DNA from: Paeniglutamicibacter quisquiliarum
GTDB lineage: Bacteria; Actinomycetota; Actinomycetes; Actinomycetales; Micrococcaceae
NCBI RefSeq assembly: GCF_019084045.1
Contig: NZ_JAHRED010000002.1
Coordinates: 124,001-188,000 of the forward strand
Length of the DNA: 64,000 nt
Direction of reading: 5' to 3'
Shown: piece by piece, positions 28,747 through 33,620 of the stretch
Layout of the letters: every line of letters starts with the position of its first letter
How positions within the stretch are numbered: position 1 is the first letter of the stretch
The notes under the pieces: generated by a model
The model's input: the letters and a program-made list of their open reading frames with translations, nothing else
Told to the model about the DNA's origin: nothing
Database searches by the model: none
Position numbers and translations under genes: made by a program

Positions 28747-29256
28747 CTGCCCGGGGCAGTCCGAAGCCCTCGGGTTTCGCCGCAATCCGGAAAAATCCGC
28801 GGGAAATGTTCCGATTGCCGTGGCAACGGTCGGGAATTTGACCTGAATCAGGGCCGGTGGAGACGGAATCCCGGTTTCGCTGGGAGCACGACTGCGGTGG
28901 GCGATTTATCTTTTGCCGGCACCCGGATCCAAGTTTTCAGTCGTGCACCGCCCAGCGTTGGATGCTGCACGGGTATGCCCTCTGTCCGTTTGACTTCCCC
29001 GGTCTCGGGGGCGCAGCGCGAACGAACGTTGAGTCAGGCGTCCATCATATTGCCAGCCGCCTAAGGGGAAAATTTTCTTCATGGGTGCGGCTCTCGACCC
29101 GCTGCGTTTTTTGTGGGGGAGAGTGCGGCGTTTGGCGGCCAGGTCTACTACCAGTAGTGCTAGCGTTCATGCTGTCGGGCCATATCTAGTGGTTTGACGC
29201 CAGGTACTCGACACGCCGTGCTGAACGACACGCCAGTTCTTTAATCTGTGGTTGAT
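28747..29256. other. Non-coding stretch upstream of nrdH, distal part
   Basis: About 510 bases without a credible gene. The 110-codon frame at 28857-29189 has no ribosome binding site and a composition unlike coding sequence. A small palindrome, ACTACCAGTAGT, sits at 29147-29158. Otherwise I see nothing. Confidence 0.5.
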
Positions 29257-29342
29257 TGCTCCACAGGGTGTGGATAGATTTTCGATTTCGCTGGATTCAT
29301 GCGGTTTAACGGCCGCTCTTTATCCACAAGGCTTGTGGACAG
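29257..29342. promoter_or_regulatory. Cluster of DnaA-box-like sequences upstream of nrdHIEF
   Basis: There are four 9-mers in 86 bases. TGCTCCACA is at 29257-29265 and TGTGGATAG at 29269-29277 (complement CTATCCACA, one mismatch). A perfect TTATCCACA is at 29320-29328, and TGTGGACAG is at 29334-29342 (complement CTGTCCACA). They form two inverted pairs. DnaA controls nrdAB in E. coli, so a regulatory role here is plausible. Confidence 0.55.
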
Positions 29343-29369
29343 GTGTGGGGTCGAATGACAGGGGTGTAA

Positions 29370-29415
29370 TACATCATGTTGGGGTCTAACGCCCCGACCC
29401 CTACTAGATGTAGTA
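29370..29415 (+). promoter_or_regulatory. Tandem NrdR-box-like sites and nrd promoter
   Basis: TACTAGATGTAGTA (29402-29415) is a palindrome with TACTA/TAGTA arms. TACATCATGTTGGG (29370-29383) matches it at 8 of 14 positions, exactly 32 bases upstream, close to three helical turns as usual for NrdR pairs. A promoter fits across them: TTGGGG at 29379-29384, a 17-base spacer, and TACTAG at 29402-29407. Repression by NrdR when dATP is high is the expected logic. Confidence 0.55.
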
Positions 29416-29447
29416 TTGAATTAGCTGGTGAGGCCTAGTGCGCGAAC

Positions 29448-29538
29448 CTCCGGAATACGGAGAAATGTACGAATCCCCGCCTCCTGAGGGCTCAATCGCC
29501 CTCGGAGCAAAACGTTCGTATGTCTCTTCCCGCGGGGA
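29448..29538 (+). ncRNA. Candidate structured leader RNA (hairpin plus pseudoknot) of nrdHIEF
   Basis: P1 is CTCCG (29448-29452) with CGGAG (29458-29462). P2 pairs 29465-29473 with 29515-29523, including TACGAA with TTCGTA. P3 is nested in P2: 29481-29491 pairs with 29498-29507, a 10-bp stem with one bulge. P4 pairs TCCCCGC (29474-29480, inside the P2 loop) with GCGGGGA (29532-29538, outside), which makes an H-type pseudoknot. The elements are contiguous with almost no unused bases. It lies between the probable transcription start (about 29414) and nrdH. I recognise no known riboswitch class. Confidence 0.55.
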
Positions 29539-29600
29539 ATGCGCATAGGGACCCAGCCACTTCACATACACAGAATTTTTGCACGAGGGGATTTACGGAT

Positions 29601-29846
29601 ATGACCGTCACGGTTTACACGAAGCCAGCATGCGTACAGTGCAACGCAACCTACCGAGCTCTTGATAAGAAGGGCATCGTCTACCAAAGCGTTGACATTT
29701 CGCAGGATCCCGCTGCCCTGGAGCGCGTACGCGCCCTGGGCTACATGCAGGCACCGGTTGTCATCACCGATGCCGACCACTGGTCGGGCTTCCGACCGGA
29801 CAAGATTGATGAGCTGGCCCAGGATTTGAGCTCCTCCGTGGCCTAA
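29601..29846 (+). CDS. nrdH: Glutaredoxin-like NrdH redoxin
   Basis: The 81-residue thioredoxin-fold protein reduces the class Ib ribonucleotide reductase. The active site CVQC is at residues 11-14, and WSGFRPDKI near the C-terminus is the NrdH signature. I chose ATG 29601 (MTVTVYTKPA); the longer frame from 29520 runs through the structured leader. nrdI follows 48 bases on. Confidence 0.96.
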   Translation: MTVTVYTKPACVQCNATYRALDKKGIVYQSVDISQDPAALERVRALGYMQAPVVITDADHWSGFRPDKIDELAQDLSSSVA

Positions 29847-29894: not shown

Positions 29895-30377
29895 ATGCCT
29901 GCTTCATCGTTGGCTACACCGCCAATGCATGATCACGCCGTTCCGGCAGAGGTACTTACCAACAGCAAATTGATCTATTTCTCCTCGGCCTCGGGTTATA
30001 CCCACCGATTCGTGGAGAAACTGGATCTGGGATGCGCTCGCATTCCGTTGCTGAACCATGAACCGCACTTGGTGGCGGCTGAGCCGTATGTGCTACTGCT
30101 TCCCACCTATGGCGGTGAAAAGGGCGAAAGATCAATACCCCCGCAAGTCGTCAAGTTCCTCAACGATGAGCGCAACCGAAACCTATTACGAGGCGTAATT
30201 GGTGCCGGAAACACAAACTTTGGAACCACATATTGCTTGGCCGCAATCAAGATCGCAGCCAAATGCAACGTTCCGCTTCTATACAAATTTGAGCTCATGG
30301 GCACTCCAGAAGATGTGACCCGGGTTCGCGAAGGATTGGAAGTCTTTTGGACACGAAAGTCGCAGTACCTGAAATGA
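29895..30377 (+). CDS. nrdI: NrdI flavodoxin-like protein
   Basis: The 160-residue flavodoxin supplies the oxidant that assembles the Mn(III)2-tyrosyl radical of NrdF. It shows [18 protein letters not shown] (FMN phosphate loop), LLLPTYGGE and [27 protein letters not shown] precedes ATG 29895; an internal ATG at 29925 is an alternative. Its GC content is visibly lower than that of the flanking genes. The stop overlaps the nrdE start. Confidence 0.96.
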
Positions 30378-32515
30378 AGCAGGATTCTAAGGAATTGCCG
30401 GCCGCTTTTCAGGGCCTGGGTTATCACGAGCTGAACGCCATGCTGAACCTTTACGGGGCAGATGGGCGCATCCAGTTCGAGGCCGATCGTGCCGCGGCAC
30501 GCCAGTACTTCCTGGAGCACGTGAACAACAACACCGTGTTCTTCCACGACCTGGACGAGAAACTCGAATACCTGGTCAAGCACGAGTACTACGAGCGCGA
30601 GACGCTCGACCAGTACACGATGAACTTCATCCGCGACCTCTACCGCGGTGCCTACGCCAAGAAGTTCCGCTTTGAGACGTTCCTGGGTGCCTTCAAGTTC
30701 TACACCTCGTACACGCTGAAGACATTTGACGGCAAGCGTTACCTTGAGCGCTACGAGGACCGCGTCTGCATGGTTGCACTTCACCTGGCACGCGGCAACG
30801 AGGAAATGGCAGTCGCCCTGGTCAACGAGATCATCGAGGGACGCTTCCAGCCCGCCACCCCGACGTTCCTGAACGCCGGCAAGGCCCAGCGCGGCGAACT
30901 CGTCTCCTGCTTCCTGCTGCGCATTGAAGACAACATGGAGTCGATCTCCCGCGGCATCAACTCCTCGCTGCAGCTTTCCAAGCGCGGCGGCGGCGTTGCC
31001 CTCTCGCTGACCAACGTCCGCGAGCACGGCGCCCCGATCAAGCAGATCGAGAACCAGTCCTCCGGCGTCATCCCCGTGATGAAGCTCCTCGAAGACAGCT
31101 TCTCCTACGCCAACCAGCTGGGCGCACGCCAGGGCGCCGGTGCCGTGTACCTCAACGCGCACCACCCGGACATCCTGCGCTTCCTGGACACCAAGCGCGA
31201 GAACGCCGACGAAAAGATCCGCATCAAGACCCTGTCCCTGGGCGTCGTGGTTCCGGACATCACCTTCGATCTGGCCCGCAAGAACGAGGACATGTACCTC
31301 TTCTCGCCGTATGACGTCGAGCGGGTCTACGGCGTGCCGTTCAGCGACATCTTCGTCACCGAGAAGTACTACGAGATGGTCGATGATGCGCGCATCAAGA
31401 AGACCAAGATCAACGCGCGCGAATTCTTCCAGACCCTGGCGGAGATCCAATTCGAATCCGGCTACCCGTACATTATGTTCGAGGACACCGTAAACCGCGC
31501 CAACCCGATCAAGGGCAAGATCTCGATGAGCAACCTGTGCTCGGAGATCCTGCAGGTCTCGACTCCCTCGGAGTACAACGAAGACCTCGGATACAAGACC
31601 GTGGGCAAGGACATCTCCTGCAACCTCGGCTCGATGAACATTGCCAAGGCCATGGACGGCAAGGACCTCGGGGCCTCGATCGAGACCGCGATCCGCGCGC
31701 TGTCCGCAGTGTCGGACATGTCCTACATCAACTCGGTGCCCTCGATCGCCCAGGGCAATGCCAAGACCCACGCCATCGGCCTGGGACAGATGAACCTGCA
31801 CGGCTACCTGGCCCGCGAACGCGTCCACTACGGCTCCGAAGAGGGGTTGGACTTCACCAACATCTACTTCTACACCGTGGTGTTCCACGCGCTGCGTGCC
31901 TCGAACAAGCTCGCCATCGAAACCGGTGAGTCCTTCGACGGCTTCGCGGATTCGAAGTACGCCTCGGGCGAGTTCTTCGACAAGTACACCGAGCAGGAAT
32001 GGGTTCCGGGCACCGAGCGTGTGCGCGAACTCTTCGCCGGGATCGACATCCCGACGCAGGACGACTGGCGTGCGCTGAAGGCCTCCATCATGGAGCACGG
32101 CATCTACAACCAGAACCTGCAGGCCGTCCCGCCGACCGGCTCGATCTCCTACATCAACAACTCGACCTCCTCCATCCACCCGGTGGCGGCGAAGATCGAG
32201 ATCCGCAAGGAAGGCAAGATCGGCCGCGTGTACTACCCGGCCCCGTACCTGGACAACGACAACCTGGAGTACTACCAGGATGCCTACGAAATCGGCTACG
32301 AGAAGATCATCGACACCTACGCGGTTGCCACGCAGCACGTGGACCAGGGCCTGTCCCTGACCCTGTTCTTCAAGGACACGGCCACCACGCGCGACATCAA
32401 CAAGGCGCAGATCTACGCATGGAAGAAGGGTATCAAGACGCTCTACTACATCCGCCTGCGCCAACTGGCTCTCGAAGGAACCGAAGTGGATGGTTGCGTC
32501 AGCTGCATGCTCTAA
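30374..32515 (+). CDS. nrdE: Class Ib ribonucleoside-diphosphate reductase alpha subunit
   Basis: The 713-residue catalytic subunit converts NDPs to dNDPs. It has the short N-terminus of class Ib, without an ATP-cone. It also shows [23 protein letters not shown] with an active-site cysteine, the loop NLCSEILQ with the thiyl-radical cysteine, MNLHGYLA, and [17 protein letters not shown]. The C-terminal GCVSCML is the CxxC that NrdH reduces. I chose ATG 30374, which overlaps the nrdI stop as ATGA, over the TTG at 30347. The missing ATP-cone means overall activity is not regulated by dATP at the enzyme, which makes NrdR control more important. Confidence 0.97.

Positions 32516-32558: not shown

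Positions 32559-33620
<1,062 letters not shown>

Follow-up and report, generated by a model that had tools for sequence, protein, structure and literature searches.

The nrdHIEF mRNA of Paeniglutamicibacter carries a 5′ leader, approximately 135 nt long, whose fold is a four-way junction of a closing stem (P0) and three arms (A, B, and C), as established by covariation among the species of the genus. The leader is a structured cis-acting RNA without an Rfam family, so far found in one genus, and it probably tunes the amount of RNR made. Its most likely mode of action, to which we give a probability of about one half, is the tuning of nrdH translation through pairing between a conserved linker and the Shine–Dalgarno (SD) segment, as a layer beneath the control by NrdR.

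The operon lies within the window, the 64,000-nt stretch of DNA analysed here (Table 1). The start of nrdH is at 29601, and the ATG at 29520 in the ORF list is an in-frame extension of it; the mechanically called start of the nrdE ORF is probably too early. No RNR besides nrdHIEF was found in the genome: the class I/II large-subunit family PF02867 has a single match, at this operon, and the class III RNR family PF13597 has none. NrdE shows the class Ib domains, including RNR_N, and the ATP-cone was not matched, in agreement with an earlier note made from the window alone. One NrdR is present in the genome. The closest named relative is Paeniglutamicibacter sulfureus, with an NrdH identity of 100%.

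Table 1. The nrdHIEF leader, its proposed helices, and neighbouring features (window coordinates)
Feature	Position	Strand	Basis or remarks
NrdR-like box 1	29369..29384	+	motif spacing to box 2; edges by eye
NrdR-like box 2	29401..29416	+	includes TAGTAT, possible −10; edges by eye
Conserved structured leader RNA, four-way junction	29424..29557	+	between NrdR box 2 and nrdH; covariation
P0 closing stem, 5′ strand	29424..29429	+	pairs with 29552–29557; 95.2% paired, 14 species
P0 closing stem, 3′ strand	29552..29557	+	partner of 29424–29429
PJ 5′ strand, GAGG	29430..29433	+	can pair with 29474–29477, extending arm A
Arm A hairpin	29438..29470	+	29438–42/29466–70 and 29448–51/29459–62; includes proposed 5-bp hairpin
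Linker AAUCCCC	29472..29478	+	conserved; complementary to SD segment 29587–29593
Arm B hairpin	29483..29506	+	core 29489–91/29498–500; variable lower stem 29483–85/29504–06; part of proposed nested hairpin
Arm C hairpin	29515..29551	+	29515–17/29549–51, 29519–23/29543–47, 29527–30/29536–39
Competing helix P0b (rod fold)	29434..29549	+	29434–37/29546–49 and 29439–44/29540–45
SD segment of nrdH, GGGGAUU	29587..29593	+	read from sequence
Proposed 5-bp hairpin	29448–52/58–62	+	5 bp
Proposed 9-bp stem	29465–73/29515–23	+	9 bp, two wobbles
Proposed nested hairpin	29481–84/29504–07 + 29486–91/29498–503	+	10 bp, one bulged U
Proposed pseudoknot	29474–80/29532–38	+	7 Watson–Crick pairs
nrdH	29601..29846	+	TIGR02194, E 3.5e-31
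nrdI	29895..30377	+	TIGR00333, E 7.8e-41
nrdE, class Ib	30347..32515	+	TIGR04170; RNR_N, lgN, lgC only
nrdF	32646..33620	+	TIGR04171 over cut-off; PF00268

A four-way junction before nrdH

The earlier note had proposed a compact pseudoknotted RNA before nrdHIEF, and a structured leader is indeed present there: positions 29440–29545 fold at −49.6 kcal/mol (z −5.84), and none of 200 dinucleotide shuffles is as good. The proposed extent, 29448–29538, is too narrow: the conserved element spans approximately 29424–29557, and parts of both the closing stem and the 3′ arm fall beyond the proposed limits.

A DNA search with a 281-base query matched 173 of 245 genomes of the family; among the matches listed, nearly the full query was aligned in at least 13 genomes, our own and 12 others of its genus, for which the named records give Paeniglutamicibacter, and in other genera it was mostly the promoter or the start of nrdH that aligned. 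The alignment comprised the 14 genomes of the genus with a DNA match, out of 15; G219, which had no match, was left out. In these 14 species, 191–197 nt separate the TAGTAT of box 2 from the end of the start codon, and the leader core has a mean pairwise identity of 65%. RNAalifold, given a plain MAFFT alignment with no structure supplied, returned the four-way junction, which replaced a first alternative model combining helix P0b with an SD helix. With the promoter and SD parts of the alignment trimmed, the model has 33 pairs, 31 of which are formed in the window. Across the alignment, 92.4% of 461 cells are paired, with 38 double-change cells compared with 12.9 (sd 3.2) in shuffles, although the 14 sequences represent about seven lineages by our own grouping, and the double-change cells are therefore not independent events. 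When the model is slid along the alignment, only 38–51% of cells are paired, and none of 200 column-shuffled alignments reaches the alifold energy of the 14-species core (z −9.1).

The alignment was also reduced to seven subsets: without L017, which is poorly aligned (20 of 33 pairs); without the clade of the window, with or without L017; one sequence per clade, with or without L017; L009–L014 only; and the clade of the window together with its sister clade. Six of the seven give z values of −9.4 to −12.1 and recover 31–33 of the 33 pairs, and all 33 are recovered both from the one-per-clade set and from L009–L014, which include no near relatives of the window. The last subset, the window clade with its sister clade, gives a rod-like fold with a z of −3.9 and 13 of the 33 pairs.

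The leader was compared with other segments of the same 14 loci, a comparison in which it has a z of −10.3 and 41 double-change cells. Eleven downstream segments of 138 nt, from nrdH onward and on both strands, give z values of −3.4 to +0.8 and 0–6 double-change cells; these are mostly coding and 74–92% identical, against 65% for the leader, which leaves them less room for change. On its reverse strand, the leader again does better than its shuffles, though by a smaller margin (z −4.5, 0 of 200; in the segment comparison, z −4.7 and 25 double-change cells). Of the two upstream controls, which precede the NrdR boxes, 29191–29328 has a z of −0.9 and six double-change cells, and 29231–29368 has a z of −5.9 and one double-change cell, a signal that is put down to the DnaA-like inverted repeats in that stretch and shows that an alifold z alone is no proof of RNA structure. 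The earlier note had named protein-binding DNA sites as another way of explaining conservation; this is unlikely for the leader core because the core has 38–41 two-sided pair changes, in contrast to the neighbouring stretch with DNA inverted repeats, which has a folding signal but one two-sided change. The leader thus has a secondary structure conserved by compensatory changes. Folded singly, the leaders of eight other species of the genus have modest MFE z values of 0 to −2.1 (30 shuffles each).

Arm C is the strongest part of the junction, with 92.3% of cells paired and 19 double-change cells against 5.8 in shuffles; arm A is 92.8% paired, with 11 against 3.8, and in arm B, the core is 92.9% paired and the lower stem 85.7%. 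An unbiased scan of 297 helices by number of double-change cells puts the outer helix of arm C first, a 3-bp helix that is not part of the junction model second, and P0b third. P0 forms five of its six pairs in the window, with U–C at 29429/29552, a position that is U–A, C–G, or U–G in 11 of the 14 species. A further short helix, PJ (GAGG/UCYC), appears in the RNAalifold folds of all five subsets in which the window clade is omitted or thinned, and is absent from the full set and from both subsets that retain the entire clade. PJ has all four pairs in nine of the 14 species and one A–C mismatch in the window and the four others, and its changes are one-sided only. With PJ included, 92.3% of 517 cells are paired, again with 38 double-change cells (13.0 in shuffles), so that compensatory changes in relatives, which the earlier note had asked for, are present in the leader.

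In the energy model, the species of the window prefers a different structure. Its MFE fold is a rod, made of P0b (29434–44 with 29540–49) and the proposed 9-bp stem, and the junction lies 9 kcal/mol above it; in the predicted ensemble, arms A and C have probabilities near 0 and P0 has 0.40, and the outer helix of arm C dominates the ensemble in only three of the 14 species. Covariation is trusted here over nearest-neighbour energies because the latter omit tertiary contacts and most junction effects. P0b itself is 85.7% paired, with 10 double-change cells against 4.3 in shuffles, and is broken in L010, L011, L014, and L017; the 9-bp stem, which makes up the rest of the rod, is not supported by covariation in the 14 species. 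Since P0b covaries and cannot form together with the outer portions of arms A and C, the two folds may alternate.

The four pairings of the earlier proposal can all be drawn within 29448–29538 of the window, where the 9-bp stem and the 7-bp pairing would form an H-type pseudoknot. On the plain MAFFT alignment, the proposed structure has 74.2% of cells paired and 19 double-change cells against 9.4 in shuffles, which fall mostly in the 5-bp hairpin and in the nested one. The relatives support the 5-bp hairpin as a part of arm A, though it is rare (0.02) in the predicted ensemble of the window's own species; what they support of the nested hairpin is mainly its GGC/GCC core, together with a lower stem whose register shifts. 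The 9-bp stem (69.1% of cells paired, two double-change cells against 2.8 in shuffles) is complete in three of the 14 species and lacks its first pair in 11, and the 7-bp pseudoknot (79.8% paired, two against 1.6) is complete in six, the window and L003–L007. Both fail the test of compensatory changes that had been set beforehand, and the H-type pseudoknot is largely refuted for the genus. That it is nonetheless the functional fold is very improbable: it is complete in the window and two near-identical relatives, and its 9-bp stem belongs to the MFE fold of the window, but that stem does not covary, the pseudoknot hardly does, and many pairs are broken. A pseudoknot that looks thermodynamically favourable in a single sequence can thus turn out to be wrong.

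An upstream ORF was also considered. By eye, the window has a reading frame of 27 codons that starts with the ATG at 29465; it does not represent a conserved leader peptide, because the codon aligned to this ATG is not ATG in six of the 14 species (L009, L011, L012, L013, L014, and L017).

The linker and the Shine–Dalgarno segment

The linker that follows arm A (AAUCYCC) has several bases that are invariant or nearly so in the 14 species, and it is complementary to the SD segment of nrdH, within a region in which GAGGGGAT (29585–29592) is invariant in all 14. The two segments can form 7–9 contiguous pairs in 12 of the 14 species, seven in a further one, L009, in the alignment register, and five in L017, and the linker is the best contiguous anti-SD segment of the whole leader in 10 of the 14 by a simple pair score. 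In L012 and L013, an SD of GGGGAUC faces a linker of GAUCUCC, retaining seven pairs; this is the sole co-change, and the plain alignment of the 14 species has no two-sided column change in the linker–SD helix. Measured by energy, the best SD duplex in the leader beats shuffled leaders (p ≤ 0.05) in just one of the 14 rows, L010, in which the SD partner is not the linker. For that reason, an SD switch via the linker is something we infer, and the structure of the leader is what we regard as established. As the conserved linker complements the nrdH SD, translational control is the most likely role of the leader.

The invariant stretch before nrdH is longer than the SD segment: UUUUGCACGAGGGGAU (29577–29592) is identical in all 14 species, which exceeds the needs of an SD alone. 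Among leaders of at least 100 nt in other genera, 12 of 52 have some segment with at least seven contiguous pairs to the SD region. In the Arthrobacter agilis group, six of 14 leaders (L049, L056, L058, L060, L070, and L083) form stronger pairings with their own SD than shuffled leaders do (p < 0.05). The segments involved are CCCC-U-rich and match the A-rich flank of the SD, and an independent SD control in this group is possible. One of these records, L070, is titled Vibrio cholerae strain 35D; its nrdH region is Arthrobacter-like, and the assembly is mislabelled or contaminated.

Promoter region and distribution of the leader

Two NrdR-like boxes precede the leader, about 16 bp apart with their edges set by eye. 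The pattern of box 2 occurs at one place in the window, as two overlapping matches on opposite strands (0.03 expected). In NrdR-controlled RNR promoters, a spacer of 15–16 bp between the boxes is described as the common one (PMC12051234, in the part available), and such promoters are also the subject of PMC12176259 (likewise in part). The arrangement here resembles theirs in its spacing, and differs from the leader in kind, being control at the DNA level that accounts for the region upstream of the leader and not for the leader itself. No consensus sigma-70 site was found in 29180–29700, and taking the TAGTAT at 29411 as a −10 element is a guess from its sequence. Two terminator-like sites (29260 and 29301) both lie upstream of the leader, and no intrinsic terminator was found within it.

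The promoter is far more widely shared than the leader. The named loci are the best 80 of 528 confirmed, eight of which (L032–L038 and L067) are records of the same members of the genus, leaving 72 outside it. The motif spacing between boxes 1 and 2 is identical in all 81 upstream regions, the window and these 80; past box 2 the family sequences diverge, and the distance to the start codon ranges from 57 to 200 nt. In 18 of the 81, which have the same NrdR boxes, this distance is only 57–69 nt, which leaves no room for such an element.

DnaA-like boxes, called with a motif that we take to be the DnaA box, lie just upstream of the nrdH promoter at 29269–29277 (−), 29320–29328 (+), and 29334–29342 (−). 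At least one such box, with at most one mismatch, occurs within 200 nt of box 1 in 77 of the 81 upstream regions (about 0.03 expected from window shuffles), and the window as a whole shows no enrichment of the motif (eight found, 10.4 expected). These boxes suggest that DnaA may couple RNR expression to replication.

A covariance model of the leader (R1), built from the 14 sequences of the genus, has one match per genome in 14 of the 15 genomes of the genus, always before nrdH; as these are the sequences from which it was built, the matches arise by construction, and the independent test is the subset analysis. The remaining genome, G219, which is 88% complete, has neither a DNA match nor an R1 match. 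Under stricter filters, with 8–11 candidates scored per genome, R1 was found in 14 of 395 genomes of the family, all in the genus itself (one of 32 genera), and in one of 296 genomes of the class, our own (one of 115 genera). When R1 was applied to 81 further loci, a single one scored above chance, L067, which is the named record of a member of the genus. The leader thus has a fixed position upstream of one type of gene, nrdH, in the same 14 of 15 genomes that supplied the model; an occurrence in several lineages or gene contexts, which is usual for riboswitches and not required of them, was not found with R1 in the 395 family and 296 class genomes.

Rfam 15 identifies only a tRNA in the whole window, and 29400–29640 has no match up to an E value of 5. 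The view of the earlier note that the RNA belongs to no recognised class holds on these results, as does its exclusion of a cobalamin riboswitch, for which there was no match at the gathering threshold or up to E 5. The leader is not described in the available portions of the literature on nrd or RNR leaders, riboswitches, structured-RNA surveys, and the genus, and a word search of the main text of two surveys of new bacterial RNAs returned neither nrd nor Arthrobacter.

Other Micrococcaceae leaders were aligned in three hand-picked groups of 14, 15, and 7, with alifold z values of −2.7, −0.05, and +0.6; no family-wide structure is seen. The Paenarthrobacter and related records (L085, L089, L090, L092, L098, L105, L107, L108, L111, and L093) have a different kind of long and well-conserved nrdH leader, from which an internal block of about 45 nt is missing in L093; the alignment of the 15 Paenarthrobacter-type leaders has no structure signal. 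By eye, the motif GCUGGYGAGGC (29424–29434), right after box 2, recurs at the homologous place in other genera, in L039, L040, L041, and L053, and with one change in L048. It is sometimes the loop of a small hairpin with a differing stem, UUGC/GCAA in L040 and CUGC/GCAG in L039 and L053. Zafaria (L041) has an 8-bp CGCUGGCG/CGCCAGCG pairing, also noted by eye.

Possible roles of the leader

In the proposed mechanism, the linker would pair with the nrdH SD and hide it, or would be held off the SD, for example when its UCYC pairs with the GAGG that immediately follows the 5′ strand of P0, a pairing that is mismatch-free in nine species. The balance between these states could depend on a protein, a small ligand, temperature, or the speed of transcription, or on no such signal at all, and the leader would tune the translation of nrdH and, via the transcript, of the whole operon. 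It would thus add a post-transcriptional layer beneath NrdR to the control of the one RNR found in this genome. Pseudoknots or linkers that take up the SD control translation in preQ1, SAM-II, SAM-IV, and similar riboswitches, which share with the present leader a junction or hairpin domain before the start codon and a conserved anti-SD segment; here, there is no known ligand and no Rfam match, the element occurs in one genus before one gene, and the SD pairing does not covary.

The leader could instead be passive, a structured 5′ end that shields the mRNA against ribonuclease attack or keeps the ribosome-binding site open, without any switching. P0 begins 8 nt past the end of the TAGTAT hexamer, a −10-like candidate from which the start would follow, so that the transcript may begin almost base-paired, and both the restriction to one genus and the widely varying leader lengths across the family fit such a role. 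A stabiliser would not need a linker of conserved bases that complements the SD, however, and we consider this reading somewhat unlikely. An orphan riboswitch, in which a nucleotide, a metal, or another ligand bound at the junction would set linker–SD pairing against linker sequestration, or the junction against the rod, is distinctly unlikely and not favoured. Such a model draws on the junction architecture with conserved single strands, on two mutually exclusive pairings that both covary, and on the position before the sole RNR detected, in whose large subunit no ATP-cone was matched; the occurrence in one genus, one gene context, and one copy per genome argues against it, as do the lack of covariation in half of the rod and the 18 short leaders behind the same NrdR boxes. 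Structured leaders before actinobacterial RNR operons have a precedent in Streptomyces, in which a cobalamin riboswitch precedes RNR genes, but the present architecture is different and has no Rfam match up to E 5.

A more elaborate version is a bistable RNA whose arms A and C swap strands against the long rod, with the linker, bound to GAGG or to the SD, as its readout. Translation of the only RNR would then follow a signal linked to deoxynucleotide supply, and the leader would be an RNA sensor replacing the missing ATP-cone; we regard this version as improbable. Binding of a cellular protein to the junction, for instance a product of the operon that would repress or activate translation, is quite improbable: ribosomal-protein leaders likewise place a junction near the SD, but there is no candidate protein here and no likeness to the known protein-binding leaders in Rfam. 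Tuning of nrdH translation through linker–SD pairing remains the reading that we prefer.

The leader adds a structured RNA outside Rfam that is tied to the enzyme limiting DNA precursor supply, and the divergence within one genus was enough to define its fold. As an element confined to a single genus, it should be useful for asking how such leaders arise, and its presence suggests that post-transcriptional control can operate beneath NrdR in an RNR operon.
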